In this document: positions 2 through 40,097 of the stretch, piece by piece | Position numbering within the stretch: the stretch's first letter is position 1 | Layout: the number at the start of each line of letters is the position of its first letter | DNA from: Sessilibacter corallicola | Lineage (GTDB): Bacteria > Pseudomonadota > Gammaproteobacteria > Pseudomonadales > Cellvibrionaceae | Assembly: GCF_021290925.1 (NCBI RefSeq) | Contig: NZ_JAJSLX010000004.1 | Span: 1 to 64,000 of the forward strand | DNA: 64,000 bases | Direction: 5' to 3' | Position numbers and translations under genes: made by a program | The notes under the pieces: model-generated | The model's database searches: none | Told to the model about the DNA's origin: nothing | The model's input: the letters and a program-made list of their open reading frames with translations, nothing else

Positions 2-877
2 TTTGTTCAAACAGACGCGAATGAAGTCACGGTTGCCAGCATTGAATTCGCTGATGTTAATTCGGTAGCAGGCGGTGGTGCAAATGACAGTGTCGATTTA
101 AATAATGATGATGCAGCGATTAATGCTGCCTCAGACTTTACCAGTAGCGGCATTCGATACACGAACGTCAACAGTGCCACGAACACCGATACTCTTACTG
201 GTACTATTGGTGATGACAGCTTTGTTCAAACAGACGCGAATGAAGTAACGGTTGCCAGCATTGAATTCGCCGATGTGAGTTCAGTGGAAGGTAATGGTGG
301 GAATGACAGCGTCGATTTAAATAATGACGACGCAACGATTAATGCTGCGTCAGATTTCACCAGTAATGGTATTCAATACACCAACGTTAATAACGCCATC
401 AACACCGATGTGCTGACTGGCACGGCGGGTGATGACAGCTTTGTTCAAACAGACGCGAATGAAGTCACGGTTGCAAGCATTGAATTCGCCGATGTGAGTT
501 CAGTGGAAGGTAATGGTGGGAATGACAGCGTCGATTTAAATAATGATGACGCAGCGATTAATGCTGCGTCAGATTTCACCAGTAACGGCATTCGATACAC
601 GAACGTCAACAGTGCCACGAACACCAATGCGCTGACTGGCACGGCGGGTGATGACAGCTTTGTTCAAACAGACGCGAATGAAGTCACGGTTGCAAGTATT
701 GAGTTCGCTGATGTTAATTCGGTAGCAGGCGGTGGTGCGAATGACAGTGTCGATTTAAATAATGATGATGCAGCGATTAATGCTACGTCGGATTTCACCA
801 GTAGCGGCATTCGATACACGAACGTCAACAGTGCCACGAACACCGATACTCTTACTGGTACTATTGGTGATGACAGC
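2..877 (+). repeat. Four near-identical 219-bp tandem repeats inside the adhesin gene
   Basis: Copies begin at 2, 221, 440 and 659, each exactly 219 bp (73 codons), and a fifth copy starting at 878 diverges after roughly 100 bases. Copies 1 and 4 share the same variant (encoding SVAGGGAND and TGTIGDD). Copies 2 and 3 share another (SVEGNGGND and TGTAGDD). The array runs off the left edge, so the copy number is unknown. Identity at DNA level implies recent duplication or gene conversion. Confidence 0.95.
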
Positions 878-23687: not shown

Positions 23688-24209
23688 ATGAGTAGATGGA
23701 AACTGTTTATACCATTGGCAGTATTTCTTGCGCTTTCGGTTCTGTTTTATCGCGGTTTGTTTTTAGATCCGACGGAATTGCCGAGTGCGCTAATCGATAA
23801 ACCTGTGCCAGAGTTTGAGCTGGCCTCTCTCGGGCAGCCGGGTCAGACGATCGAAAATGAAGATTTACTGGGTAAGCCTTACTTGCTCAATGTTTGGGCC
23901 ACGTGGTGTGTGTCTTGTCGATACGAACATCCCTACTTGATCCAACTGGCCGAGCAGGGCGTGAATATTTATGGCATTAACTACAAAGACGATACCGATG
24001 AGGCTGTGCGGTGGTTGGAGCGGTTAGGTGATCCCTACCAGATGAACATCGTTGATCAGGACGGTCGATTGGGTGTTGATTTGGGGGTGTTTGGTGCTCC
24101 TGAAACTTACGTAGTCGATAGCCAAGGTGTGATTCGTTACAAGCATGTGGGTGTTGTTAATCAAGAAGTATGGCAATCAACAATGGCACCGATTTATTCT
24201 CAATTGTAG
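23688..24209 (+). CDS. ccmG: Thiol:disulfide interchange protein CcmG/DsbE
   Basis: 173 residues. An N-terminal membrane anchor (residues 5-22) is followed by a thioredoxin fold with the active site WCVSC (C74, C77), GINYKDD, and the cis-proline region FGAPETYVVD. It keeps apocytochrome c cysteines reduced for heme attachment, receiving electrons from DsbD/CcdA. It is normally followed by ccmH and ccmI; here the next gene is an unrelated one on the opposite strand. Confidence 0.95.
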   Translation: MSRWKLFIPLAVFLALSVLFYRGLFLDPTELPSALIDKPVPEFELASLGQPGQTIENEDLLGKPYLLNVWATWCVSCRYEHPYLIQLAEQGVNIYGINYKDDTDEAVRWLERLGDPYQMNIVDQDGRLGVDLGVFGAPETYVVDSQGVIRYKHVGVVNQEVWQSTMAPIYSQL

Positions 24210-24238
24210 TTCTGGCCAATTCTAGTTCTGCTCAAGGG
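24207..24238. repeat. Two 16-bp direct repeats at the end of ccmG
   Basis: TAGTTCTGGCCAATTC and TAGTTCTGCTCAAGGG are adjacent, sharing the first eight bases. The first T-A-G is the ccmG stop codon. Confidence 0.5.
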
Positions 24239-24256
24239 TAATTTAGTACGCAATAC

Positions 24257-24294
24257 AACGCTAAGTTGTGCGATTCAAACAGCAACTTAGCGTT
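24257..24294. terminator. Perfect 12-bp hairpin between ccmG and the acetyltransferase gene
   Basis: AACGCTAAGTTG pairs exactly with CAACTTAGCGTT over a 14-base loop, 47 bases after ccmG and 30 bases before the convergent gene's stop. The right arm runs into TTTTC. It is a likely terminator for both directions, stronger for ccm. Confidence 0.75.
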
Positions 24295-24324
24295 TTCAAT
24301 CTAAACCTCTCCCAATACGATCAA

Positions 24325-24825
24325 TTATCCTCGGCTAATTATTTTGGCTGGAATTCCCGCAACCGTTAGGTCAGATTCGACCGGTTTTGTAACAACCGCA
24401 TTCGCACCTACTTGAACATTATCGCCAATGGTTAAGGGCCCCAATACTTTTGCGCCTGCGCCGAGATCCACGTGATAGCCTAAATCCACTTTCCCCGCTA
24501 AAGTCACTTGCTGAAAAATAAGGCAATTCGGCCCAATGGTAGAATCTGGGTGAATGACGATGCCGTGTGGATGAGGTAATAATAAACCGCCGCCAATTTG
24601 GCAATTAAGATCAATCTCTGCGCCACAGACAACACTCCAGAATCGATGCCTAATTACGCATGTTTTCATGAGAATTTTGCTGAGCACGCCGCCCTTATTT
24701 TTCAAAGATTGATAATTGCGAATGGACTTTAATAGTTTTCGGCTTGGGTCCCAAAAACGACGAGGTTTTTCTCGGTCCCACATTGGCGTTTGCCAATCAA
24801 CAGGTTGCCTAACTCTATCATCCAT
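24325..24825 (-). CDS. Hexapeptide-repeat O-acetyltransferase (serine acetyltransferase-like)
   Basis: 166 residues. The left-handed beta-helix begins around residue 65 with hexapeptides (IDLNCQIGGGLLLPHPHG, VIHPDSTIGPNCLIFQQVTL, VGANAVV) and ends AGIPAKIISRG. The two histidine-containing turns and the QQVTLAG loop are those of the CysE-like branch. It lacks the helical N-terminal domain of true CysE, which is about 270 residues. Short homologues of this type usually sit in polysaccharide loci and acetylate sugars, so the acceptor is open. It is a single gene with no sugar genes beside it. Acetyl-CoA is the expected donor. Confidence 0.85.
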   Translation of the reverse strand: MDDRVRQPVDWQTPMWDREKPRRFWDPSRKLLKSIRNYQSLKNKGGVLSKILMKTCVIRHRFWSVVCGAEIDLNCQIGGGLLLPHPHGIVIHPDSTIGPNCLIFQQVTLAGKVDLGYHVDLGAGAKVLGPLTIGDNVQVGANAVVTKPVESDLTVAGIPAKIISRG

Positions 24826-25359
24826 TAGAAGTGTTACCTCATATAAGCTACATCATATATTAGATATTAAATTCGCTAGCAAAAATAGCAAATAAAAACT
24901 GACAAAAATTAGGTGTACAACTCAAATTTGAACATTCTGTTATCGTAATATTAGTATGAGTTTTTGTTCAAAAAGATTTTCAATTCTCTTTTTAATTATA
25001 CAGCTTATTTACAAACCTATTTTAAAGACAAAGAATTGATTGTGACTTCTGTTTAGGTGCTTAAGTACCCAGGTGTTTAAGTGTTTAGGTACATAGCTGT
25101 TTAGATGCTTAGAAAGCTAAATGAACAATTTGCCAGAGAAGTTTATTTGAGAGGGTCGCCTGAAAAGATTGCTGGCAATAACCGTAGGGATTGAATAAAA
25201 ACAAAGGTGGAGTATTTGTCAAAGATGAATTTAAATACACTTAATCCATTCACCTAATACGCACGAAATAAAATCACTCGCTTAAAGGAAAAATGTGTTG
25301 CACGTCCTTGTGCTGAAAAATCTGTGTGTTGAAAAATAGTACTCGTTGTAGAGTATTTA
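24826..25359. other. AT-rich intergenic region with an 8-bp tandem array
   Basis: About 530 bases between the acetyltransferase start and the bphO stop, both on the minus strand. The only structure I see is the array at 25051-25114. No clear terminator for bphP-bphO is visible. Confidence 0.5.
25051..25114. repeat. Degenerate 8-bp tandem array, eight units
   Basis: Successive 8-mers read GTTTAGGT, GCTTAAGT, ACCCAGGT, GTTTAAGT, GTTTAGGT, ACATAGCT, GTTTAGAT, GCTTAGAA. The consensus is roughly GTTTAGGT. The unit is not a multiple of three and no frame uses it. Confidence 0.7.
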
Positions 25360-25914
25360 TCAGTGACTTGTAAACTCGATTTGCTTTAACGCAATATCAA
25401 AGTTTTGGAACGTCATTAATGCTGATTCGATTAATACATTGCTAGGGTGTGAATCAATGTTGATTGAATTTATAGCGTTTAATAAAGATTGCCATTGGTA
25501 TTCATTGGTTGTAATCGAAAAAAATCCAACAGGCAAATCAGCGTTCATTCTTTTAATGGAATTAGACATCACGGTCGCGCCGGCTTTCGATCCGTGAAAT
25601 ACATACAGCGCGCCGAGTAACGAAAATTCGTCTTGTATCCATGATGTGTTAAAAACGGGTAATTCTTGAGTGTTAATATCGAGCAGCGTTAAATCGTCGG
25701 TTAATCGTACGCACTCATGCTCCAGAGAAAAGCTTGGCCACAGGTTGAGTTCCTTTCGTATTCCTTCAATAGACGATACAGCACTAAAGTAACAACTCAG
25801 CACTTTAGCGTAAGCATCGTGAGAAATTTCCCTAGAAAACAAGCGTCTCAATGCTGGATTTACGTGCAGTGAGTTATGGGCATGGTTGGTTTTGTCTATT
25901 AAATAATTATGCAT
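25360..25914 (-). CDS. bphO: Biliverdin-producing heme oxygenase (BphO type)
   Basis: 184 residues from the ATG at 25914 (a TTG two codons earlier is in frame). The family pattern is visible as HNSLHVNPALRRLFS near the N-terminus, supplying the probable proximal heme histidine, and LLGALYVFHGSKAGATVM near residue 105, the distal helix with its glycines. The enzyme opens heme to biliverdin, the chromophore of bacteriophytochromes. It lies 20 bases downstream of bphP on the same strand, so the two are surely co-transcribed. The order bphP-bphO is the reverse of the bphO-bphP order known from Pseudomonas. Similarity to the family is moderate, but context makes the call strong. Confidence 0.85.
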   Translation of the reverse strand: MHNYLIDKTNHAHNSLHVNPALRRLFSREISHDAYAKVLSCYFSAVSSIEGIRKELNLWPSFSLEHECVRLTDDLTLLDINTQELPVFNTSWIQDEFSLLGALYVFHGSKAGATVMSNSIKRMNADLPVGFFSITTNEYQWQSLLNAINSINIDSHPSNVLIESALMTFQNFDIALKQIEFTSH

Positions 25915-25934
25915 AATCAATTACAGACTCACTA

Positions 25935-28232
25935 TCAACCAACCTTGGGGAACGTTAATACAATTCGAGTGCCGTCTTGGTAATCGTTGTCGACGTGAAT
26001 GGTACCGTTGTGCAGTTGAACGATTTGTCGACAAATGGTTAGTCCGAGGCCGGATCCCTCAATATTTTTACTTCTTGAGGCTCGTCTAAACGGTTCGAAT
26101 ATTTCAGATTTATCGGATAACTTAATGCCCATTCCGTTATCTGTGACAAATAGGGTGATATCGTCATTTTCCGTTTGTGAAGAGACAATGACATGCAGTT
26201 CAGAATCGGGTTTTTTGAACTTGATTGAATTGCTGAAAAGGTTCTGAAAAAGCGTCACTAGTAAATCATAGTTTCCACGCAAGTCATTCGGTAAGTCTTG
26301 TTCGGCAATAAGATTGCATTCCTCTTTAGGGCCTAAAATTCCCCAAGCGTCATCCAAAACACTGTTGAGATCGATCGGTAAAAAATTAATTTGCTGTTGT
26401 TCAATAACCAAAAAATCCAGCATAGCGTCAATAGACTTACTCAACCGATTAGCCGACTTCAACGCTTCGTTGCCCATTTTTTCTATGGTTTTATTATTGA
26501 TTTTTTTGTTTTCTTCACCAATGGTATCGGCGGCAATTCTGATGTATCTCAGTGGTCCTTTAATATCGTGCGCTGCGGCGTAAGAGAAAGTTTTCATGTT
26601 TTTATTGTGCTGAATTAGCTCAATTTGGCTAGAGACAATATTAAACATGCGCAGCAGAATTTCTTTTGCTGCGTGAGTATCCGTTGTTGTCCAGTCATCG
26701 GATAAATCCTTGTGCACCGACACCCATTTTGAAAACGAATTCCGAGGCATTAACGTATCGGAACCGTCCGGTTGTTTTTCCAGTTGTTTCTGAGTGGGGT
26801 CACCTGCCCAATGCTCGGTTTTTGCAATTGGAGGTCTTATCCAAATTAGGTGACAAATCTGATTAAGGTGAATTTGCTCGTAAAGAATGCCGCAACAATT
26901 ATCAATGTAATCCAACGCGCGCGGCCAATGTTGGTGGAGAGCGTTGGTTGAAAACGACTCATTTTTACTGGCGTATTGTTGCCGTAACCAGGTTACCAAC
27001 TCTTCAACAAAATCTTCGTCGGGTGTTTCGCCATCGTAATAAGTTTTCATTCCGTATTGGAACACAATGCCTGTACTGTTCAAAAACTCTCTTAATTCAG
27101 GCAACACTTGATGAATGGAGTTTTCAAAATCGTCGCCCGAAATAATGCTGTTATTAATACCTTCTTCGATTAAGCGAATATTGTTGATGGTAATAGCACT
27201 TTTTTTGGCGTCGATTTGGCGCAGTTTCGACATCAATGTAATCGCCAATTGATTCACAATTCCCCAGGTGTCGAACGGTATCGATTTTTCTTCGTCATGG
27301 TGACAAGCAATACAACCCCAGAGGTTGTCGTCATACATTAATGATGTCGTAAAAGAAGACTTGACCCCAAAATTGCGAAGATAGGCAAGGTGCATATTCG
27401 AGACGCCTCTGAGCAGAGAGAACGTCAAATCCAGAGCGTGTTCAGACTCATTACCGACCGCAACAATATTTGAAATACTGTCTTTCTCAACACTGGTTAT
27501 TGCTCTAAAAGGCAATAAAGACATCATTACCCTAGCTTGTCTGGGAATATCAGACGCGGGAAACAGCAATCCTATAAAGGAAGCCATGTGATCAGCGCAA
27601 GATTCAGCAACCACTTTTCCGGACCAGTCGGGTTGAAACTGGTAGATCTTAATTCGACTGAATTGCGTAATGGTTCGTATTGCCTTCGCCGCCGAATCCA
27701 TCGCCTCCTGAAAGGTATCACTTGCCATGATTTTACTGGTGGCGTTATTGAGAACGGTTAAGTTGTCGCGGATGTCACGGGTTTCGATATCTACCTGAGG
27801 GATAAACTCCAAAAATCCCAGCGATTGCTGTTCGTGATAAATGCACTGGAACGGGTTGTTCTCGATGCTGATGTCCGCAACGATGGAGTGCACGCCTTGA
27901 GATTTTCCAACATGGGGATTCAGTACTTCGTTGATAACCGGTAAAACGTCTTCAAGGGTTTGATTGGATTGCGTTGTGTTTAGGTTGATTAATTTATCAA
28001 TATTATCCGACGCTGCTACGATTTGGCGTGAATCAATATCGATTGCCAATAAAACGCCGTAGGACTGAATGGTGTTGATGCAATGAATAGGTTCTTTTTC
28101 GCAGTTATCGAGCGTGACTTTTTGCTGGTTGTAAAAAAATTCGTCAAGTGAATTTAAGTGGTCGAGGTCTGTTTGATCAGATTTTCTGTTACTGGAGAAA
28201 AACTGAATCGGGGCGTTGTGTTTTTCTTCCAA
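25935..28232 (-). CDS. bphP: Bacteriophytochrome sensor histidine kinase
   Basis: 765 residues with the full PAS-GAF-PHY-kinase order. Bilin attachment should be at C44 in DNCEKEPIH. The GAF domain has FPASDIPRQAR (D228 of the DIP motif) and the conserved histidines H281 (NMHLAYLRN) and H311/H312 (ACHHDEE). The PHY tongue motif PRNSF is at 496-500. The kinase part has the H-box YAAAHDIKGPL (H555), the N-box FSNSIKF, DNGMGI and GSGLGLTI. The expected function is red/far-red sensing through biliverdin with light-dependent autophosphorylation. No response regulator gene adjoins it, so its target must lie elsewhere or be a REC domain such as that in the CheB-CheR fusion nearby. It is the first gene of a two-gene operon with bphO. 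Confidence 0.95.
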   Translation of the reverse strand: MEEKHNAPIQFFSSNRKSDQTDLDHLNSLDEFFYNQQKVTLDNCEKEPIHCINTIQSYGVLLAIDIDSRQIVAASDNIDKLINLNTTQSNQTLEDVLPVINEVLNPHVGKSQGVHSIVADISIENNPFQCIYHEQQSLGFLEFIPQVDIETRDIRDNLTVLNNATSKIMASDTFQEAMDSAAKAIRTITQFSRIKIYQFQPDWSGKVVAESCADHMASFIGLLFPASDIPRQARVMMSLLPFRAITSVEKDSISNIVAVGNESEHALDLTFSLLRGVSNMHLAYLRNFGVKSSFTTSLMYDDNLWGCIACHHDEEKSIPFDTWGIVNQLAITLMSKLRQIDAKKSAITINNIRLIEEGINNSIISGDDFENSIHQVLPELREFLNSTGIVFQYGMKTYYDGETPDEDFVEELVTWLRQQYASKNESFSTNALHQHWPRALDYIDNCCGILYEQIHLNQICHLIWIRPPIAKTEHWAGDPTQKQLEKQPDGSDTLMPRNSFSKWVSVHKDLSDDWTTTDTHAAKEILLRMFNIVSSQIELIQHNKNMKTFSYAAAHDIKGPLRYIRIAADTIGEENKKINNKTIEKMGNEALKSANRLSKSIDAMLDFLVIEQQQINFLPIDLNSVLDDAWGILGPKEECNLIAEQDLPNDLRGNYDLLVTLFQNLFSNSIKFKKPDSELHVIVSSQTENDDITLFVTDNGMGIKLSDKSEIFEPFRRASRSKNIEGSGLGLTICRQIVQLHNGTIHVDNDYQDGTRIVLTFPKVG

Positions 28233-28635
28233 AATTTTTTCCTTTATATAAGTTGTAAGAATAGAAATCGGCGGGAATTATAGAATTAGGTCAAGATTTT
28301 GACATCATACTCAAAGTCAATCGTTATGCATACCTAAGTTTGCCACCTTGTGTTTGTCTAAGAATTTACAAAAAACAGTACCGAGGAATTGCCGACTCAA
28401 TTCAGAAGAATTAACAGCGGTAATTTGTTGTTAAATTGTTAATTTTTCAATTTTTTCCTAATAATTGAGGTTGCTAATTCGAAACCAGAATGTCTATTTG
28501 ATTTTTATATTCATATCGTTACTGAATGGAATTGGATGAATCTTTTTATTTGTAAATTTATTTCATCATAGACTGACGCTTTTTTGACGAACTAGGGTGT
28601 GTTTACTATAAAAAAAATATACTTTATTGGGATAG
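28233..28635. other. Divergent promoter region between bphP and the GGDEF-EAL gene
   Basis: About 400 AT-rich bases. A loose inverted pair TTGAC/GTCAA spans 28299-28320. I cannot assign it to a regulator. No RNA gene is seen. Confidence 0.4.
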
Positions 28636-31272
28636 GTGCGCACAGTGCATTATGAGGGAGAATTACTGACCCAAGCGTCTCAGATTGGAGGACTCAGTTT
28701 CCTTGACAGTCTGGATACAGATTCAGTGCTGCTGAGTTGTTTGGATCAACTGATGAACTTTTATCGGTCGGATTACGGCTTCATTTATATTGATACCAAC
28801 GTCCGCACGAAAAACCTTACACCGGACGTTCCTCAAACTTGGGAGCTGGTTGCTTCTTGTATTATTGATAAAGACCGGCTTCGAATTGTTAAGAGTAGCG
28901 TCAGCAGTGCTGGGGTTTCACCTTCGCTTCTTTCTTATTTGAATAATAAAGATTTCTTTTATTCTAATTCTGAAATTCCGGTAAAAATACCTGAGCCAGA
29001 AAAAACGGTGAATTCTCTGGCGTGCTTCCCCTTGAAGATTTCCGACGTTGTTTGCGCCGTTTTTTGTTTATGCAATACCGCAACGGAGTTAAAAGAAGAG
29101 CAGTTGGTCAGTTTGAGGCCGTTTTTATCGTCTGCCGCGTTGATCTTGCAAACTGAAAAACAAACGAGCCTATCGAATATTTATCCCGCTGTGTTCGATG
29201 ACCGCCAGTATTGCAGTTTGCTGGCGATTTTAAATAACTTGTTTAATGGTGTTGTTTTCGTTAATGACGACTGTGAAATAACATTTTGTAATAACAGTGC
29301 TCTTAGATTGTTGGCGTTATCTCATTCAGAAGCGATTGGCAAACCAATCAAAAATTTTATAACGTCTGATTCGAGTTTAATTCAAGCGTTGGTTGCCAAT
29401 AATCGGCGGGCAGACGATACCTTTTTTAACTCGGATTCTTGCGCAAAACGTTCGCACTTTCCCGGTGTGCTTATTTCATCGTTTAAGGGTGATAAATCCG
29501 TTGTTAACGTTAATCTAATTCGTTGCGTGGTTTCTGAAAGAGTCGTGCGAGGCATTGTCTTTAGCGATTCTGTTGACGATAAAATTATATCCAACGACTA
29601 CCACTCTATCGTACAGCGATACCAAGTCATTACTAACTATGCACCCGTCGGTTTAATTCAGCTCAACAAAGATTGGGAATGCATTTATGTCAATGACGCC
29701 TGGTGCGAATACTGTCATTTAACACCGGATGAATGTTACGGGCTGGGTTGGATCAATGGCATCAACAGTGATGATTTAGAAGGCACCTTAAATTCCATTC
29801 GCGTCGATTTAAGTTCCAAAGGTCGATACAGCAACAAGTTACGTTTAAAAACCCCGTTGGGTCGCATTACTTGGGTTACTTTAGATGCTCGCAGCTTATT
29901 TTATGAAGATGGCAGCATCAACGGTGTTGTGATTAGCGTTCAGGATATTACCGATTACCTGAAAAAAGAACGTGAATTAAAAGACATTGCTGAAACCGAT
30001 CAGTTAACCGGGTTGGTTAATCGAAGTTTTTTCAACGATCGTCTCGAAGTTGCTATTAATGGCATCAAGCGCTTTGGTGCCATTGCCTTGCTATTTATTG
30101 ATTTGGACAAATTCAAACAAATTAACGACACATTAGGCCACGAGTTTGGCGATGAACTGCTAAAGCAAGTGGGTGAACGGTTAAGAAGTTGTTTGCGGCG
30201 GGTGGATACCATTGCTCGTATTGGTGGCGATGAATTTACCGTTCTTATGACGAACATCAGCAATGTGCAATCCATCACAACCGCCACAGAAAAGTTAATT
30301 GATTCGTTCAGCGAGCCTTTCATTTTAGGGCAGCAGTCTGTTTATGTGACGTGCAGTATTGGTATCACCGTAGGTGAAGACGACCACACTCGATCAAAGT
30401 CGTTACTGCGTCAAGCCGACGCTGCTTTGTACAAAGCAAAAGAGGCGGGCAGAAATCAATACAAGTTCTACACGCCTGAATTGGATAAAAGTGTCAATCT
30501 GCTAATCGATTTAAGAAAAAGTTTGCGCGAATCCCCTAACGACGATTTTCGCGTGGTTTATCAACCGCAAGTTCATTCGGTTACTGGAAATATTGTGGGC
30601 ATAGAAGCACTGTCGCGATGGTCTTCGCCTTTGGGGGAAGACATTCATCCAGATATGTTTATTCGTATGATCGAAGATTCTGGCTTAATCAACGAATTTT
30701 CTGAGTGGTTGTTTGAAAAGGTTTTTAAAGACGTTCATCAATTAAGAGAGCAATTTACTGAAGCGTCGGATATAAAAATATCGGTTAACTTATCAGTTAA
30801 ACAGTTTAGAAACCGAGATCTGGTAAAATACCTCGGAAAATTGTGCGTTGAATACGCAATTTCTCCGGCGTGTTTTGTCCTGGAAGTTACCGAGACGGCA
30901 TTTATTGATGATCCGAAACTGGCAAATTTAACATTGGCGCAATTAAAAGAATTGGGCTTTTCTATTGCTTTGGATGATTTTGGCACCGGTTATTCGTCCT
31001 TGTCTCATTTACGGTCCATGCCCATTAAAATTGTCAAAATAGACAAAACCTTTGTTAATGATGTAATTCATGATCCAGAGGATGCAAAAATCGTGTCGTC
31101 GATTATTTCTCTGGTTCATACGTTAGAGATGGATGTGATTGCTGAGGGGGTAGAAAATATTGAGATTAAATCTTGGATGGAGGCAAACAACTGCTTTGTT
31201 CAACAAGGATTTTATTATTACGAACCTATGCCCTTAGAAGATATTTGTCATTTATTAAAAAATCGATCGTAA
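28636..31272 (+). CDS. GAF-PAS-PAS-GGDEF-EAL cyclic-di-GMP protein
   Basis: 878 residues from a GTG (28636; a second GTG three codons on is possible). The order is a GAF-like region (about 20-175), two PAS domains (about 195-310 and 325-440), GGDEF (about 450-610) and EAL (about 625-870). The cyclase signature GGDEF (530-534) is exact, with an RxxD inhibitory site (521-524) ahead of it. The EAL part keeps EALSRW (E657), DDFGTGYSS, KIDK and AEGVEN, so both diguanylate cyclase and phosphodiesterase residues look intact. It has no membrane segment, so it is a cytoplasmic sensor. Divergent from bphP. A functional link to light is suggestive only. Confidence 0.93.
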   Translation: MRTVHYEGELLTQASQIGGLSFLDSLDTDSVLLSCLDQLMNFYRSDYGFIYIDTNVRTKNLTPDVPQTWELVASCIIDKDRLRIVKSSVSSAGVSPSLLSYLNNKDFFYSNSEIPVKIPEPEKTVNSLACFPLKISDVVCAVFCLCNTATELKEEQLVSLRPFLSSAALILQTEKQTSLSNIYPAVFDDRQYCSLLAILNNLFNGVVFVNDDCEITFCNNSALRLLALSHSEAIGKPIKNFITSDSSLIQALVANNRRADDTFFNSDSCAKRSHFPGVLISSFKGDKSVVNVNLIRCVVSERVVRGIVFSDSVDDKIISNDYHSIVQRYQVITNYAPVGLIQLNKDWECIYVNDAWCEYCHLTPDECYGLGWINGINSDDLEGTLNSIRVDLSSKGRYSNKLRLKTPLGRITWVTLDARSLFYEDGSINGVVISVQDITDYLKKERELKDIAETDQLTGLVNRSFFNDRLEVAINGIKRFGAIALLFIDLDKFKQINDTLGHEFGDELLKQVGERLRSCLRRVDTIARIGGDEFTVLMTNISNVQSITTATEKLIDSFSEPFILGQQSVYVTCSIGITVGEDDHTRSKSLLRQADAALYKAKEAGRNQYKFYTPELDKSVNLLIDLRKSLRESPNDDFRVVYQPQVHSVTGNIVGIEALSRWSSPLGEDIHPDMFIRMIEDSGLINEFSEWLFEKVFKDVHQLREQFTEASDIKISVNLSVKQFRNRDLVKYLGKLCVEYAISPACFVLEVTETAFIDDPKLANLTLAQLKELGFSIALDDFGTGYSSLSHLRSMPIKIVKIDKTFVNDVIHDPEDAKIVSSIISLVHTLEMDVIAEGVENIEIKSWMEANNCFVQQGFYYYEPMPLEDICHLLKNRS

Positions 31273-31533
31273 CCGCTTGATTGTTGACAAAAGATTAATA
31301 GCCTATTCATTAAATAAGCGTAATTTTCGGATTAAACGTACGTGTTTTATCCCAATGAATAACTTACAATCAACACAATCTTTTTTGGTAACTGATTTTA
31401 AACAATCAGTACTCAATCATTTTTATTTATTTTTTAGTATTTGTTGTCATTATAGAATCTTTAAATAACAAACCGTTATTGATGATTCATTCGGTGCTAA
31501 AAATGAGTGAAATTTATCCTACATAGGGCCAGC

Positions 31534-34500
31534 ATGAATAACAAAGTAGATCTTTCTACAGAAATTGTGCCTTCTTATTATATTGGAATTGGGGCATCTG
31601 CTGGTGGATTGGAAGCTTTGGCGGATTTTTTCGGTAATTTACCGCCAGAAACCGACGCTGCCTACATCGTGGTTCAGCATTTGTCGCCAGACTTCAAAAG
31701 TATGATGCCAGAACTCTTGGCAAAACATACGAACATGCCTATTTTTCCCGTTGAAGACGGCGTTTTGGTGCGTCCGAATTCCATCTATTTAATGCCGCCA
31801 CGAAAAAATATGTTGTTGGCTGAAGGTAAATTGCTGATTTCCGATCAAATGCCGGCAAATCATCCGCATATGCCGATTGATATATTTTTCCGTGCCTTGG
31901 CCGAAGATCAACAGCATAAAGCCATCGGCGTGATTTTATCCGGTACCGGTTCTGATGGCACTCGCGGTATTAAAGCAATTAAAGAATCCGGCGGCTTAAT
32001 TATTGTTCAAGAGCCAAATTCCGCTAAATTTGACGGCATGCCGATCAGTGCCTACAAAACCGGTTTGGCGGACCTTTCATTGCCGCCAAGCGAAATGGGT
32101 GACAGTATTTTGAGATTTATCCGCCATCCTTCCATTTCTGGCGATCACTCTGAGGCGAAACTGTCGAAAAGTTTCAAAGACGAAACCTTAGATGAAATTT
32201 TTAAATTACTGAAACAGCAGTCGTCGATTAATTTTTCTCATTACAAAGCGTCCACTGTTGCCCGAAGGATCGAGCGGCGACTTGGTGTTAATCAGCTTGA
32301 GTCTTTAGAAGCTTACCGATTACTGCTGTTGGAATCTCCGCGAGAGCTGCAAATTTTAAGTCGTGAACTGCTCATTGGCGTTACGCGATTTTTTCGTGAC
32401 GAAGAAGCATTTTCGATTTTAAATACTCAAGTCATTCCGGATATCATCGAGAATTCTCTGGATACCCGCGAAGGTATTCGCATTTGGGTGGCGGGGTGCT
32501 CGTCGGGCGAAGAAGCCTATTCATTGGCAATCTTGTTTGACGAACATTTGAGAAGTAAAGGGCTTGATATTTCGGTCAAAATTTTTGCCACCGATGTCGA
32601 TGAAGAAGCCATCGCCAATGCTAGCTCTGGCGTTTATTCCGCCGATATTATTCAAGACGTTAGCTTGGAGCGTTTAGAGCGTTATTTTGATCGCAAAGAA
32701 ACCACCTATTGTGTGAAACCTAAAGTTCGGCAAATGGTAATTTTTGCCGTGCACAATATGATTGATGATCCACCGTTTTCAAACATTAACATGGTGTGTT
32801 GTCGCAATGTCTTAATTTATTTCCAGCACGCCACACAGAAAAAAGTATTGTCATCGTTGTACTTTGCCCTCAAAACCAGTGGTTACCTCTTTTTGGGAAC
32901 CTCGGAGTCCTTGGGCGATTTACAAACTCATTTTGAATCGGTCAATGAGCGGGCGCGTATTTTTGTCAAAATCAGTAATGCTCGCATTCCGCTTGGCAAT
33001 CATCCGCCTTCGCTCAGCTATACCTCGTCGAATTCAGAATCGCGCGTGATGTCGCCCGTAACGCGGGTTATTCGAGCCATGAAAGGCAATAACGGCACAA
33101 GATCCGGCATTGTGAATGTGCTCGAACGCTTGGTTGAAGAATACGTGCCCGATTGTATTGTGTTGAATGAGTCCTTCGATGCGATCCATGTGTACGGCGA
33201 TGTTTCAAAATACACCAAAGGCATTCGTCACGGTAAAGTCAGCAATAATATTAAAGATATTATTATTGATGACTTAAGCGTTGCAGTTTCTACTGCGTTA
33301 TATCGGGCGGAAAAAAATAATTCCGATGTGTTTTATAAAGATGTCACCGTGGGTGATTTATCTCAAAATCCGGCTTATATCGATTTATCGGTTTTGGTCG
33401 TTTCCGACAGTGATCAAGCCAATGCAGCCCGGCATTACCTATTGCAGTTTGTCAGTCAAAAAGAAGAAATCCAAAAAGATACGTCCAACAAAAAGATTTC
33501 CTTTGACGCTTCCGAACAGTCGCGGCAACGCATTATTGACCTAGAAAATGAACTGATTAAAAAGCAAGAACATCTGCAAGTAACCATTGAAGAACTGGAG
33601 ACGACCAACGAAGAGTTGCAATCGGCGAATGAAGAGTTGATGTCTGCCAACGAAGAATTGCAAAGCACGAACGAAGAATTGCAATCTGTTAACGAAGAAC
33701 TGTATACCGTTAATAGCGAGTATCAACAAAAAATCATTGAATTAACCGAAGCCAACGAAGACTTAGACAGCGTCGTTAATGCCACCAAAATTGGCATTAT
33801 ATTCTTGGATGATCAATTGGCCATTCGCAGATACACATCGTACGCAACCAATTACATTAATGTCAGAGAGTCCGATATCGGTCGACCTTTCCATCATATT
33901 TCACACGACTTGAGTTATGAAGACTTCTTCTCAGACATTCTGAAAGTCAGCAGCAGTCGCGTTGAGATTGAAAAGACGTGCTCCACTTACATTGGCCACG
34001 AAATCTTGGTTCGCCTGATTCCGTTCCAAAGCATTGATGAGGAATCCGAAGCGGGCGTCTTGATTACACTCACCGATATCACCAAGCAGAAAAATATCGA
34101 AAAATCGCTCAAAAATACTCACGATAAAATGCTGAGCTATTTTACCACGTCGGGACGACCCAATAAGCTGCTTGAATACATCGGTAATATTTCGCTGTTG
34201 GTAATAGATGACGAAGAATTGGATTTGGCCAATATTTGTCAGTTGCTAAAGAAAATTCCCGGCAGAAAATACACCGTATTTACGGCACAAACCATCGAAA
34301 GTGCTGTTGAAATTATCAACCAAAACACCATTGATTTGTGTTTGGTCGATTACATTCTTGAAGACTTTACGGCCAAGGATTTTGTTGCAGAATTAGAAAC
34401 ACAAGAAATTAGTGTGCCTATCGTGATCTTGTCGGGTTACTCAGAAAATGGTCTGGATGCGAGCTTTTTAAGAACTCAAGCGTTCGATTTTTTGAGCAAA

Positions 34501-34596
34501 GACGAACTCAATAGCCAGCTGTTAAAACGCAGTATCGACTACGTTTTAGAGCGTCGAAATCTTCAATCTGTGTTTGAAGAAATTGGGATTGAATAG
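31534..34596 (+). CDS. CheB-CheR-PAS-REC fusion signalling protein
   Basis: 1020 residues from the ATG at 31534, which has AGGG upstream; a GTG at 31507 is in frame. The order is CheB methylesterase (GASAGG with the nucleophilic serine, QHLSPD, GTGSDGT), CheR methyltransferase (HYKASTVARRIERR, GVTRFFRD, GCSSGEEAYS), a linker, a coiled coil of heptad-like ELQSxNEEL repeats, a PAS domain and a C-terminal receiver. The receiver has LLVIDDEEL, LCLVDY (phosphoaspartate), VILSGYS and FLSKDE. Such CheB/CheR-PAS proteins are known from chemosensory-like and light or stress systems. They usually end in a kinase; here a receiver is at the end. No receptor or CheA gene is adjacent. Confidence 0.93.
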   Translation: MNNKVDLSTEIVPSYYIGIGASAGGLEALADFFGNLPPETDAAYIVVQHLSPDFKSMMPELLAKHTNMPIFPVEDGVLVRPNSIYLMPPRKNMLLAEGKLLISDQMPANHPHMPIDIFFRALAEDQQHKAIGVILSGTGSDGTRGIKAIKESGGLIIVQEPNSAKFDGMPISAYKTGLADLSLPPSEMGDSILRFIRHPSISGDHSEAKLSKSFKDETLDEIFKLLKQQSSINFSHYKASTVARRIERRLGVNQLESLEAYRLLLLESPRELQILSRELLIGVTRFFRDEEAFSILNTQVIPDIIENSLDTREGIRIWVAGCSSGEEAYSLAILFDEHLRSKGLDISVKIFATDVDEEAIANASSGVYSADIIQDVSLERLERYFDRKETTYCVKPKVRQMVIFAVHNMIDDPPFSNINMVCCRNVLIYFQHATQKKVLSSLYFALKTSGYLFLGTSESLGDLQTHFESVNERARIFVKISNARIPLGNHPPSLSYTSSNSESRVMSPVTRVIRAMKGNNGTRSGIVNVLERLVEEYVPDCIVLNESFDAIHVYGDVSKYTKGIRHGKVSNNIKDIIIDDLSVAVSTALYRAEKNNSDVFYKDVTVGDLSQNPAYIDLSVLVVSDSDQANAARHYLLQFVSQKEEIQKDTSNKKISFDASEQSRQRIIDLENELIKKQEHLQVTIEELETTNEELQSANEELMSANEELQSTNEELQSVNEELYTVNSEYQQKIIELTEANEDLDSVVNATKIGIIFLDDQLAIRRYTSYATNYINVRESDIGRPFHHISHDLSYEDFFSDILKVSSSRVEIEKTCSTYIGHEILVRLIPFQSIDEESEAGVLITLTDITKQKNIEKSLKNTHDKMLSYFTTSGRPNKLLEYIGNISLLVIDDEELDLANICQLLKKIPGRKYTVFTAQTIESAVEIINQNTIDLCLVDYILEDFTAKDFVAELETQEISVPIVILSGYSENGLDASFLRTQAFDFLSKDELNSQLLKRSIDYVLERRNLQSVFEEIGIE

Positions 34597-35080: not shown

Positions 35081-36229
35081 ATGATAAACCAAACAATAAG
35101 AGCAGCTTTAACCCATTTCTTGCCTAAGCGGAAAGTATTTTATACGGCAAGTAAAGCGGTGCTAGTAACGACGTTATTCAGCAGTTCAGGTTATGCACTA
35201 GACGTAGAGGAAGATGCCAATTATCAAAAAGTGTTTTCTAATTTGGCATTACATTGTATTCATCAAGAATTTCCAAATGTAGTTAAACACACCATGAACG
35301 CCGCAGCAGATGTAAAGGCGCCCAGTAAATTATATCCGGCGTTTTATGGCTGTTTAGATTGGCACTCGTCGGTACATGGGCATTGGTTGTTAGTGCGCAT
35401 GCTAAATACCGCAGGCGATAAAGTCGACCGTGAAGAGATTATCCAAAAACTCGGTATTAGTTTTACGAAAGACAATATCGACGGCGAATTAGCTTCATTA
35501 GTTCGGGATAACAATTCGGCTTTTGAACGCCCTTATGGACTCGCTTGGTTTTTACAGTTAACGGCGGAATTGCGTCAGTCAACGTTGCCGCAAGCACGCC
35601 AATGGTTAGCGATATTAATGCCTTTAGAGGAGGAAATTGTTGCGCGGCTGACGAACTGGTTAGGAAAGCTTACTTATCCAATACGTACAGGCGAGCATAG
35701 CCAAACCGCCTTTGCATTCGGCCTAATGCTCGACTGGGCTAAAACGGCAAACAATGCCAGCTTTGAATCGTTGTTAACACAAAAAGTGAAACACTATTAT
35801 TTAAATGATAAAAATTGCCCGTTGGCTTATGAACCTTCCGGCCAAGATTTTTTATCGCCGTGTTTGGCGCAAGCAGATTTAATGCGACGGGTTTTGCAAC
35901 CGAAAGAATTTAATGCGTGGCTAAGCGAATTTTTCCCAACGTTGACAGAGCGCTCGTCAGGGTGGCTTGCTCCGGCGGTTGTTACCGATAAAACAGATGG
36001 CAAGCTGGCTCATTTGGATGGCTTAAATATCAGTCGAGCCTGGATGTTAGAAGGCATCATCAGCGGCCTTGATAAAAATGACCCAAGAGTGGAAGTGCTT
36101 GCTTCAAGTTTAGCAGCGCATCGGTCGGCGGGGCTTAATGCGGTTTTTGGCGATATGCATTATATGGGGAGTCATTGGTTAGGCAGTTTTGCAGCCTATT
36201 TAGAGACCCAGCGAGGTGTTGGCGAGTAA
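35081..36229 (+). CDS. DUF2891-family exported protein
   Basis: 382 residues. A Sec signal peptide spans about residues 1-40 and ends SSSGYALD. Family-typical blocks are LYPAFYGCLDWHSSVHGHW, ERPYGLAW, the EPSGQDFLSPCL segment, and HLDGLNISRAWMLEG. The repeated helix pattern suggests an alpha/alpha barrel as in glycoside hydrolase-like or bile-acid/terpene-type folds, but no activity is established to my knowledge. A GGAAGG ribosome-binding site precedes the ATG. Predicted periplasmic. A single gene ended by terminators. Confidence 0.88.
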   Translation: MINQTIRAALTHFLPKRKVFYTASKAVLVTTLFSSSGYALDVEEDANYQKVFSNLALHCIHQEFPNVVKHTMNAAADVKAPSKLYPAFYGCLDWHSSVHGHWLLVRMLNTAGDKVDREEIIQKLGISFTKDNIDGELASLVRDNNSAFERPYGLAWFLQLTAELRQSTLPQARQWLAILMPLEEEIVARLTNWLGKLTYPIRTGEHSQTAFAFGLMLDWAKTANNASFESLLTQKVKHYYLNDKNCPLAYEPSGQDFLSPCLAQADLMRRVLQPKEFNAWLSEFFPTLTERSSGWLAPAVVTDKTDGKLAHLDGLNISRAWMLEGIISGLDKNDPRVEVLASSLAAHRSAGLNAVFGDMHYMGSHWLGSFAAYLETQRGVGE

Positions 36230-36384: not shown

Positions 36385-39300
36385 TTAGAGCGGGCAAATA
36401 CTAACGTCATCAATACCGCATTCAACCAAGTCGCCGCCTGCTGTGCCATCGGAACACTGGGTTCGAATAATCACGTCGGAACCACCTGGAATGGTGCGTG
36501 TGGCGGTCTGCCATGCTGCGTTTGATGTTGTATCACCATTGCTCGCCAAGGTTTGGAAACTCACGCCACCATCGGTTGAAACTTCCAAACGGAAGAAATC
36601 ACCCGCGTCACCGCCAGAATCTCGCTGACCGTGGAAATAAGCCACCGACAGCGTTGAGTTTGAAGGTACAGAGTAGGAAGGCGATTCTGCGATACAAGTA
36701 CCACCGTCGACATCGTTGACACCCGCAGAGGTATTGGTTGCTGTGAAGATAGCGTTGATACCGCTGTTAGCGCCGCCGACTTGCGTAGTGACTCCGCCGT
36801 TGACGATCTCAGTAGGCGTACCCAATACGAACGCGCCTGTTGAACAGGTTGAGGCCGCAGAGTTAGACCAACCGCCTGCGTCGGTTTCGAAGTCTTCTTC
36901 AACCACACAACCCGCTGGCGGTGGTGGCGGAGGCGTGGCGTCGGCTGCACAGAATAGAACGCGGTCAACACCGGCTTCAATTAAGTCGCCAGCGCCAGCA
37001 CCGTCAGTTGCGCGAACACGCAATTGCACATTGCCGGGGTTGTTAAGCACTGTGCTGGCGGGTGTCCATGCGGCGTTGCTTACGACATCGCCAATATTCA
37101 CCAGTGAATCAACCACGCTTCCATTGTTAAGCACATCAATGGTGAATCCATCAGTAGCATCGTCACCGGCGTCGCGCTGGCCGTGGAAGTACATCAATTC
37201 GATGTCAACCGCGCCAATACCCGCTAAATTAACCGACGGAGAAAACGCTTCACAGGTTCCGCCATCGACATCAGCCGTACCTGCTGCGGTGTTAGGTTGG
37301 GTAAACCAAGCACTGTTACCACTGAAAGCGCCGCCCACTTGGGTTGTAACGCCAGAGGCAGTAATTAAATTTGGCGTACCTAAGGTAAATGCACCCGTGG
37401 TACAGGTGTTAGAGCCAGTAAACCAACCGTCGGCACTGGTTTCAAAGTCCGCCACATACAGCGGCTCTGAGCCGTCGGAACACTGCGCGACCGGTGGTGG
37501 CGTAGACGAACACTGCGCCGGTACTGCAAAGCCGTTGGTTGGGTTAGTGCTGTTTGAGCCTCCCGAAATGGCGTCAACACCCAAACCGTAGGCGGCAAAT
37601 GCATTCCAGACGGTACACATATCTTCACCGCCAAAGCTGTTGGCAACCGCCGTGATAATACCGTCGCGCGCGTCGGTGAAGGTTGGCGAACAAGCGGTGT
37701 TTTTCAGGCCTTCGTTAACATAAAACAACGCGCGTTTGTTACCGGCTTCGTTGGCATCGTTTAAATCGAAATTAATTAAATCCGACTCAAAACCGTGCTC
37801 GTCGACTAACGCCCAATACACTTCCCAAAGCGCTTGCGCCCAAACGGAACCAACACCGTGTGGAATAACGGAACCGCGCACGGATTCGTAGGTGTAGTTA
37901 TTAACGGCAGGATCAGTACTGTACTGCTGTGGGCGAATGGTGCCTGTTGGCGGTAGATTAAATAAATAAGCGCCAATGCCGCGAACATCGGTTGCTAAAT
38001 CGGAAGGACGTGCGGTGTAGACCAAACCGAACCAATCACTCCAGCCTTCGCCGCCTTGCTGGCTGTTGTTCAAACAGCTTGAATTGCTCGGGCCACCCAC
38101 TTGTCGAGTTGAAATACCGTGGCCGTATTCGTGGGCGATAACGCCGTTATCGAAATCCCCGTCTGCCGATGGATTGCTTTCGTCACACAAAAACATTTGC
38201 ATACGTGGATTGCTGCCGTCTGCGGGTGTGGCAAAGTTGGCGTTACAGTTTGAGCCGCCAGCAGCGTTATCTTGAGCTTCGGCATTGACGGAGTCTGAAC
38301 CAAAGCCGCCGCGTCCGAAATTATTTTCCTGGAAATTACCGCCGGATTCATCGAAGCCGTATTGGTATTGCACATCGTGAATTAAATTACTCCAGTAAAA
38401 TAAATTCGTGATGGCAGCGGGCAGGGAGTTGACCGGATCGCTGTTTAAATTCAGAGGGAAATCACACACTTGTCCTGATGCACAGGCAACCTCAGGCGTA
38501 TCACAGGCGTTGTTGCCGTTGCGATCGGCACAGGCGTGAGCATTGTTGCCCACCATAATATTGGTGCCGGCATTAAACCATCCGTTAGGTGAAGCCGTTG
38601 GATCTTCGGGATCAACGACTAATTGTCGCGCGTCGTTCGGTGGCAGTGGTGTTGTGTGAATTGGGCTTTCGACGGGTTCGGGATAAACGCGGTAGCTCGC
38701 GTCTTTCATTAAATCAAAACTGGTCAGCAAAGCGCCGGTTTCTGCATCGATGGTTACATTCGGCCACGCGTGATCCATTTCGAATTGAAAATTCCAAGCG
38801 AGCGTCACATTGCCTGGTGCAATCGGTACCAAAACCAAACTGGCTTTAAACGGTTTTGGTGATAACTGTTGCTGACTAATCATCACTGACGATTGAGCAT
38901 CAGAAAGTGCTTCCATCATCACCGGTTGATTGGTCATTGGAATATTTAATTCCCGCGCCGCATTACTGACCGCGCTTTGCGCATTGATCACAGGTGTCAT
39001 GGATTTGATCGATTTTGCCAGCTCTGGAATAAATCCGTTATTCACGTGACTGATCGCGCCCGCCTTGGTGACGTGAACTTGCATTTGGCCGTTATAAACC
39101 GGAACACCATTGAATGTTTGGCCGAAATAAAAGTGCGTAACGCCACTGATCGACTCGACCACATCCGTAACCTGCATGGCTCGAACGTCTGAGGGCACTA
39201 AGCCCAATAAATTCATGTTGCGATTCACAAACGCTCGCGCAACCGCGTTTGGATTTCCGGCATTCGCCGAAGGCCCGGTAAGGTTGCCCATGGCATTGGT

Positions 39301-39591
39301 CAGTGTTCGAGTTGCACCGAATTCAGAAAATGTCGTCATTAAATTCGGAGACTGCTGGCGCATTGCGTTAATGGCCTGCATTTGTAACGCACTTGGCGCT
39401 TTTTGAGCTGTACGAGGAACATTGGTAGGGCGGTTATCAATGTCTCGATTAAAGGTTGTTTGCCCAACTTGTGCAAACACGGTATTGGATATCGCTAAAC
39501 TTAATAATGACAAGGATAAAATTTTAAACGATTTTTTATGGGGAAAATTGAAACGCTTTTTCCCGCGAGACGTCATGGCATTGTGTATCAC
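36385..39591 (-). CDS. Secreted M36 (fungalysin-type) metalloprotease with two C-terminal modules
   Basis: 1068 residues from a GTG at 39591, five bases after a clear GGAGG; the next ATG is at 39576 and is too far from it. A long-n-region signal peptide ends near SNTVFAQ. A propeptide of about 300 residues (FTP/PepSY-like: QTFNGVPVYNGQMQVHV) precedes the catalytic domain. Zinc ligands are in HEYGH (about 487-491) and GGEGWSDW. After the catalytic domain come two homologous modules of about 175 residues, each opening DFET(S/D)xxGW and each containing TGAFxLGTP, GGVTTQVGGA and YFHGQRD, joined by a polyproline linker. The modules are probably surface- or substrate-binding domains, or are processed on secretion. 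M36 enzymes digest proteins such as elastin and keratin in fungi. Confidence 0.92.
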   Translation of the reverse strand: MIHNAMTSRGKKRFNFPHKKSFKILSLSLLSLAISNTVFAQVGQTTFNRDIDNRPTNVPRTAQKAPSALQMQAINAMRQQSPNLMTTFSEFGATRTLTNAMGNLTGPSANAGNPNAVARAFVNRNMNLLGLVPSDVRAMQVTDVVESISGVTHFYFGQTFNGVPVYNGQMQVHVTKAGAISHVNNGFIPELAKSIKSMTPVINAQSAVSNAARELNIPMTNQPVMMEALSDAQSSVMISQQQLSPKPFKASLVLVPIAPGNVTLAWNFQFEMDHAWPNVTIDAETGALLTSFDLMKDASYRVYPEPVESPIHTTPLPPNDARQLVVDPEDPTASPNGWFNAGTNIMVGNNAHACADRNGNNACDTPEVACASGQVCDFPLNLNSDPVNSLPAAITNLFYWSNLIHDVQYQYGFDESGGNFQENNFGRGGFGSDSVNAEAQDNAAGGSNCNANFATPADGSNPRMQMFLCDESNPSADGDFDNGVIAHEYGHGISTRQVGGPSNSSCLNNSQQGGEGWSDWFGLVYTARPSDLATDVRGIGAYLFNLPPTGTIRPQQYSTDPAVNNYTYESVRGSVIPHGVGSVWAQALWEVYWALVDEHGFESDLINFDLNDANEAGNKRALFYVNEGLKNTACSPTFTDARDGIITAVANSFGGEDMCTVWNAFAAYGLGVDAISGGSNSTNPTNGFAVPAQCSSTPPPVAQCSDGSEPLYVADFETSADGWFTGSNTCTTGAFTLGTPNLITASGVTTQVGGAFSGNSAWFTQPNTAAGTADVDGGTCEAFSPSVNLAGIGAVDIELMYFHGQRDAGDDATDGFTIDVLNNGSVVDSLVNIGDVVSNAAWTPASTVLNNPGNVQLRVRATDGAGAGDLIEAGVDRVLFCAADATPPPPPPAGCVVEEDFETDAGGWSNSAASTCSTGAFVLGTPTEIVNGGVTTQVGGANSGINAIFTATNTSAGVNDVDGGTCIAESPSYSVPSNSTLSVAYFHGQRDSGGDAGDFFRLEVSTDGGVSFQTLASNGDTTSNAAWQTATRTIPGGSDVIIRTQCSDGTAGGDLVECGIDDVSICPL

Positions 39592-40097
39592 AAACACCTC
39601 CAAAGGTTAGTATTGATCAAAGCAGTTTGACGAAAAATTCCGCTGAATTATTTTTAATTAAAATTGGGATTATTATTATGAGAAGCACTGATTAACTCAG
39701 CGCTTTACGTGAACAAGGACTTATCGAAAATATTGCGACTGCAAATTTCTTAAAAATACAATCAAAAGAAATTGTAGTCAGAATTTTCATTAACATCCTT
39801 GTATTGATGCGAGTGAAATGCTCTAAATACCTTTTTAAAAAATTATCGATTAAAAATCTTTGTTCAGACAGCAAACGTACTTTATCTTCTTGTCCTCAAC
39901 CAAAGAACTTTCTGATTTTCAATAACGGTAAGTATTTTGGAATAATCTGACAGATATGACAGTAAGAGAATGGAAAATATAAATGGCCAAGCATTTAAAA
40001 CTTGACCATTAAAAATTAAAAGCTTTAAAAAATTATTTTATTTTGCGATGTTATATCGTAGCAATTTATTTTCTGATATTAACAACAAGAGTCTGAT
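39592..40097. other. AT-rich intergenic region, no gene seen
   Basis: About 500 bases between the M36 gene start and the DUF302 gene stop. A 60-codon minus-strand frame inside has no ribosome-binding site and looks random. No RNA or repeat is recognised. Confidence 0.5.

Follow-up and report, generated by a model that had tools for sequence, protein, structure and literature searches.

Known phytochrome-receiver pairs are the cyanobacterial Cph1/Rcp1 and the BphP/BphR of Deinococcus, and CheB-CheR fusions are common proteins for which we know of no established substrate. In Pseudomonas aeruginosa, according to the available text of PMC6932827, bphO precedes bphP in a dicistron of heme oxygenase and orphan phytochrome kinase that no regulator gene adjoins, the regulator being the distant AlgB. 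The accessible part of PMC8846402 describes phytochromes fused to GGDEF/EAL domains, e.g. Rhodobacter BphG, and the PapB-PapA system in which a stand-alone BLUF protein controls an EAL protein, and cheBR fusions are counted in Geobacter in the part available of PMC8396549. The locus described here lies in positions 1–64,000 (the window) of contig NZ_JAJSLX010000004.1 of Sessilibacter corallicola, whose genome of 4.70 Mb in 8 contigs is 99.48% complete. Positions 25360–34596 hold genes for a bacteriophytochrome kinase (bphP) and a putative heme oxygenase (bphO) and, next to them, genes for a GGDEF-EAL protein and a CheB-CheR-PAS-REC fusion. We read this block, with moderate confidence, as a conserved two-gene output module placed beside a species-variable sensor kinase, which here is BphP with BphO.

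The locus resembles each of the described systems in part. As in P. aeruginosa, heme oxygenase and orphan kinase form a dicistron, but bphO is second here and the nearest receiver is fused to CheB-CheR. The kinase has the same architecture as the phytochromes of Cph1/Rcp1 and BphP/BphR, and Rcp1-like receivers accompany the kinases found at this locus in relatives; unlike those pairs, no Rcp1-like receiver lies next to bphP in the window and no Rcp1/BphR-like receiver is evident in the genome when a single Rcp1-like receiver is the query (best E 1.8e-8). The initial annotation had reported a kinase without an adjoining partner response regulator, and this stands, the fusion's C-terminal REC being the sole Response_reg match in the window (61 are listed genome-wide), while the genome search likewise leaves no dedicated BphR-type regulator evident elsewhere. 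Red light and cyclic di-GMP (c-di-GMP) are shared with Rhodobacter BphG, but sensor and enzyme are separate genes here. PapB-PapA also sets a separate light-sensor protein next to a c-di-GMP enzyme and differs in that the window has a phytochrome kinase and no BLUF protein. A BLUF blue-light gene directly precedes the GGDEF-EAL gene of the corresponding pair in Exilibacterium (L054:6692-7126), a second light-sensor type there. CheB, CheR, a coil of Glu-Glu heptads and PAS occupy one chain as in the CheB-CheR-PAS(-kinase) fusions, from which the S. corallicola protein differs by the receiver after PAS and by the tie of its gene to a GGDEF-EAL partner.

The stable unit is the pair formed by the GGDEF-EAL gene (28636–31272, plus strand, 878 amino acids) and the fusion gene (31507–34596, plus strand, 1029 amino acids, GTG start with an ATG 9 codons downstream). 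When the fusion was searched against 58 genomes, its own among them, five further full-length matches came up, in the one congener of the set (G001, 68%) and in G026, G032, G014, and G013. A named-genome search added ten loci, from Exilibacterium, three Psychromonas, Paraglaciecola, a Saccharophagus metagenome-assembled genome (MAG), Alteromonas KUL49, a Glaciecola MAG, Reinekea, and a Granulosicoccus MAG; this search kept its best 80 matches, more relatives than these 15 exist, and L053, L061, and L062, which are G001, G014, and G013 again, are counted once. In 14 of the 15 the gene next to the full-length fusion is a GGDEF-EAL homologue, which ties the two output genes together more strongly than initially claimed. 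The exception is Paraglaciecola, where 1.4 kb of contig precedes the fusion and holds a shorter gene that gives matches resembling REC and GGDEF. Among the 58 genomes the best GGDEF-EAL hits fall in those holding the fusion, and at E <= 1e-120 (a threshold of our choosing, with at most 16 candidates scored per genome) seven have a match, namely the six with the full fusion plus G047, which has a reduced CheB-PAS-REC protein. The co-occurrence of full fusion and GGDEF-EAL protein in this set gives a Fisher value of 1.7e-7, uncorrected for kinship.

The sensor next to the pair varies. The window and 11 of the 15 relatives (G001, G026, G014, Exilibacterium, the three Psychromonas, KUL49, Glaciecola, Reinekea, and Granulosicoccus) have a kinase gene no more than 2 kb from the pair, the Glaciecola kinase being short with no H-box found. 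These calls used a profile built from phytochrome and CheB-CheR-kinase cores alone, and a profile from all cores gave the same result. The 12 kinases seen compare with 0.66 expected from the genome-wide density of HATPase_c (787 in ~71.9 Mb, counted from per-genome totals), and the flanks at 2–10 kb hold two kinase genes across all 16 loci. Because a histidine kinase beside the pair is so common, a route from kinase to pair is plausible. The neighbors are of CHASE, PAS, Cache, degenerate, and phytochrome types. Six of them, from G001, Exilibacterium, Reinekea, and the three Psychromonas, form one clade (support 100/98), each with a stand-alone receiver nearby, and G026 has a kinase of another clade together with a receiver. 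The Psychromonas receiver at L055 is similar to Rcp1 and RcpB, both regulators that work with phytochromes (E 1.3e-18 and 2.4e-18). The Glaciecola protein was not included in the kinase tree, nor were two fetched stretches that lacked a usable H-box or hit.

The congener has a different arrangement at this locus. Its left genes, including ccmF and the acyltransferase that forms the left border in the window (24325–24825, minus strand), are kept at 75–79% identity and are followed directly by the GGDEF-EAL gene with bphP-bphO absent between; a DNA search of this genome with window positions 24000–28640 found the acyltransferase only. On the right side a PAS kinase and an Rcp1-like receiver precede the M36 peptidase gene, in the site occupied in the window by a DUF2891 gene (35081–36229, plus strand), to the right of which the window's M36 peptidase gene follows (36385–39603). 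Each of bphP-bphO and the kinase-receiver pair is present in one of the two species compared, and the arrangement of genes suggests that the light sensor may have been put into an exchangeable sensor position in S. corallicola. The GGDEF-EAL gene of the congener runs up to residue 846, where its contig ends. The remainder (residues 845–870, 50%, E 1e-8) lies at the end of the contig that carries the fusion, and a 27-base repeat is shared by the two contig ends (L133 and L040); the gene or the assembly is perhaps split by a repeated or inserted element.

The phytochrome itself is distributed separately from the pair. PHY occurs in 8 of the 58 genomes, own included, and in none of the five others with the full fusion, presence of the two being unassociated (Fisher 1.0). 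The initial annotation had expected the three units to stay together in relatives and named their separation as grounds for dropping its proposal, and that separation is in part what is found; a single conserved cluster of all three is rejected on this distribution. It is quite possible, if short of probable, that bphP-bphO is an independent light-sensing dicistron, a chance neighbor signaling to a regulator elsewhere such as an AlgB-like member of the NtrC family. The orphan BphP of P. aeruginosa phosphorylates the distant AlgB, and AlgB is predicted as the partner wherever BphP is an orphan (both from the available text of PMC6932827). At least 8 NtrC-family regulators are present in the S. 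corallicola genome and one passes the NtrC cut-off, but no AlgB-named NCBIfam model hits any of the 8 that were scanned (10 stretches fetched). A chance arrival would also have had to land right next to a pair for which a kinase neighbor is usual, and the kinase and receiver of the sister species would have had to be lost from the opposite flank of that pair.

Further observations weigh against BphP as the sensor of the pair. No relative has a phytochrome beside the pair, and 13 of the 15 genomes lack PHY altogether; in the other two it is on another contig (one in Exilibacterium, two in Paraglaciecola). A kinase within 2 kb also accompanies 22 of 58 other CheB-CheR fusions (67 control loci, L065–L132 without L067, of which 9 were left out for want of a callable CheB-CheR open reading frame (ORF)), and the enrichment is therefore only partly special to the pair. 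The excess over this control has a Fisher value of 0.020, or 0.062 with the three Psychromonas counted once, and the idea that a kinase neighbor is a property of this pair is weakened accordingly. In four relatives the 2 kb on either side of the pair hold no kinase; two of these loci are cut by a contig end. In 7 of the 15 relatives a separate stand-alone receiver lies beside the kinase, so the kinase possibly bypasses the fused REC altogether. BphP is transcribed divergently from the pair across a 403-bp gap, its transmitter is a long unplaced branch in the tree that does not join the module kinases, and the fused REC ranks 29th of 45 among own-genome matches to the receiver that follows bphP in G006. 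On this rank a resemblance of the fused REC to the receivers behind bphP in two relatives is not supported. An origin of the phytochrome's kinase part from the module kinases was considered separately and rejected, the tree placing its long branch beside an unrelated kinase (89/87); BLAST had pointed to such an origin, with the module kinases (1.4e-28 to 8.4e-25) ranking ahead of the first phytochrome (4.0e-22).

Those two relatives, G006 and G027, have bphP, then a stand-alone receiver, then a CheB-CheR-PAS-kinase gene on one strand (L011:8842-15154 and L012:8795-15763), an arrangement that spans two genera of the same family and involves a fusion of a different kind, ending in a kinase and not a receiver. 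They are 2 of the 7 other PHY-bearing genomes among the 58, and the G006 receiver weakly matches the fused REC (27%, E 3.9e-6), which would fit phytochromes and CheB-CheR fusions being general partners of which the window is one version. This is unlikely, as the other 5 PHY genomes gave no CheB-CheR BLAST hit with the window proteins in 20 kb around the phytochrome (17.5 kb in one).

The four genes and their domains are as initially described, with coordinates and Pfam domains recovered and every motif sought by script present in BphP, the GGDEF-EAL protein, and the fusion, in line with the claim of intact catalytic and chromophore residues. BphP (25935–28232, minus strand, 765 amino acids) is a histidine kinase of PAS-GAF-PHY-HisKA-HATPase architecture with PHY (123.1 bits), PAS_2 (40.9), GAF (32.9), and HATPase_c (91.2) above the Pfam cut-offs and HisKA beneath (23.9 versus 26.9). 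Its motifs are NCEKEPIH (Cys-44, the N-terminal biliverdin cysteine), PASDIP (the DIP motif), ACHH, WAGDP, and PRNSF (the PRxSF tongue), with AHDIKGPL (the phospho-acceptor His-555) and the ATPase boxes NLFSNSIKF, DNGMGI, and GSGLGL in the kinase part. The closest solved structures are full-length bacteriophytochromes (E 3.2e-76). The NCBIfam model bacphytchrmBphP (NF041576) scores 201.6 bits against a cut-off of 1040, and judged from its sequence BphP is a relative of that equivalog and not the equivalog itself. PHY is single copy in the genome, and the named-genome search with BphP confirmed no relative.

The gene bphO (25360–25920, minus strand, 186 amino acids, TTG start with an ATG two codons downstream) scores 19.1 bits with PF01126, under the cut-off of 23, and a search of the genome with PF01126 gave nothing at E 0.001. 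Its three BLAST relatives sit directly before bphP genes in G002, G031, and G053, and PF01126 matches all four proteins at E values no higher than 1, the best being 1.1e-14. For these two reasons a divergent heme oxygenase is still the best reading of the sequence. A proximal-His candidate, His-15, and a G-rich helix are conserved in all four aligned proteins, the AlphaFold model is too poor for use (mean predicted local distance difference test score 42), and a Protein Data Bank (PDB) search with bphO gave no hit. The order bphP-bphO, reported as the reverse of the Pseudomonas type, is confirmed, and bphO comes first in the 3 further linked pairs that were found. An imperfect tandem repeat (25049–25112, 24-base unit, 2.7 copies) lies between bphO and the acyltransferase gene.

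The GGDEF-EAL protein, of GAF-PAS-PAS-GGDEF-EAL layout, has PAS (two stretches), GGDEF, and EAL above the Pfam cut-offs and GAF_2 beneath (21.5 versus 28.6 bits). Both catalytic signatures are present, GGDEF with RRVD upstream and EAL with VTET, DDFGTG, and EGVE. A 19-residue mean hydropathy of 1.6 is the usual hint of a membrane helix; the peak here is 1.99 at residue 128, so the description of the protein as soluble is less sure than that of its catalytic motifs, though the peak falls within the GAF stretch. In the fusion CheB, CheR_N, CheR, PAS_10, and Response_reg are above the cut-offs, with GASAGG, QHLSPD, and GTGSDG in CheB, AGCSSGEE in CheR, and IDDEE, LVDY, and LSKD in REC (34198–34530). 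The phospho-acceptor residues Asp-901, Asp-902, Asp-948, and Lys-998 are invariant in the six aligned fusions.

We infer that BphP feeds the pair by the following route. BphO would supply biliverdin, which BphP would bind through Cys-44, and red or far-red light would alter BphP autophosphorylation. The phosphate would pass to the fusion REC, which is the nearest receiver, directly or through another receiver. REC would set the methylesterase/methyltransferase activity, and the partner GGDEF-EAL protein would convert that activity into a change in c-di-GMP. It is very unlikely that the pair works without kinase phosphate, sensing through its own GAF/PAS domains with BphP acting by transcription only or not at all: PAS or GAF domains occur in each of the two proteins, a receiver is absent from the GGDEF-EAL protein, and four relatives have no kinase close to the pair, but the invariant REC residues and the retention of the receiver in the CheR-less G047 protein point to a use for phosphate.

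Between CheR and PAS the coil of the fusion (residues 695–736, 33589–33714, plus strand) is a candidate methyl-acceptor helix. Chemoreceptor methylation helices have Glu/Gln pairs in heptads followed by small residues. In an alignment of 77 fusions (those with a CheB-CheR ORF among 86 loci given, 61 of them without a receiver, from many phyla) the coil is the most conserved stretch, with a mean share of the commonest residue of 0.92 compared with 0.71 for CheB, 0.61 for CheR, and 0.51 for PAS, the choice of loci by two CheB patterns favoring CheB conservation. Glu-Glu pairs at 702, 709, 716, 723, and 730 recur every seven residues, are 97–100% conserved, and have small residues after them, and the repeat is visible in the DNA at 33605–33713. 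Four tandem heptads occur in 98 of 99 CheB-CheR-like ORFs, repeated gene copies from overlapping loci included, and no other ORF of the loci has the motif. The sole ORF without them is the G047 protein (L134:3656-5326), which has no CheR, changed CheB motifs, and 21 coil residues missing, with PAS and REC kept; it is a single case, and its MAG is 81% complete. A sample chosen independently of CheB, 13 plasmid stretches fetched of 256 matching records, gave 11 CheR-bearing ORFs, all with the heptads by a somewhat looser pattern, and two stretches gave no ORF. One of the 11, a Deinococcus fusion (L177:2396-6449), has no CheB GASAGG and keeps the heptads, with a separate CheB gene with GASAGG beside it; this fits help in trans but counts against the heptads being strictly linked to a CheB in their own chain.

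The coil has the heptads of a methyl-acceptor helix of the methyl-accepting chemotaxis protein type and shows no sequence kinship with chemoreceptors, a PDB search returning coiled-coil proteins at E 0.03 and worse and no chemoreceptor. The pattern of pairs indicates that the heptads may serve the fusion as a methyl-acceptor helix of its own; they may also be part of a simple dimer coil under strong structural constraint. In the first case CheR and CheB would add and remove methyl groups on the fusion's own Glu-Glu heptads, as in a chemoreceptor and in one chain. That CheB-CheR-PAS fusions are self-contained in this way, methylation of their own coil tuning the receiver or kinase behind it, and that in S. 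corallicola this is set by light and reports to c-di-GMP without a chemoreceptor, is an unlikely proposal; it would amount to an adapting light-to-c-di-GMP pathway built from an exchanged-in phytochrome and the conserved GGDEF-EAL partner.

Elsewhere in the window, the ORF at 275–5860 (1861 residues) has no Pfam match at E 1e-5, an Rfam scan gave no match, the promoter scan found 25 against 29.1 expected, and the terminator scan found 21 against 11.1 expected, many within genes.

Neither the gene pair nor a methylated coil is described in the open-access literature searched, a scope that left subscription papers mostly outside, or in the portions available of PMC12826048, PMC8396549, PMC2577667, PMC9239204, PMC8846402, PMC5812497, and PMC6932827. 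The conserved pair with its changing sensor neighbor is a more interesting fact than the three-part pathway, which is not conserved. For the orphan phytochrome of a marine-type gammaproteobacterium the pair is a candidate output, and the near-invariant Glu-Glu heptads offer a direct test of the substrate of CheB-CheR fusions. If the proposed reading is true, many signals would reach c-di-GMP by a new route, through a pair in which methylation enzymes are tied to a GGDEF-EAL protein beside a changing kinase.

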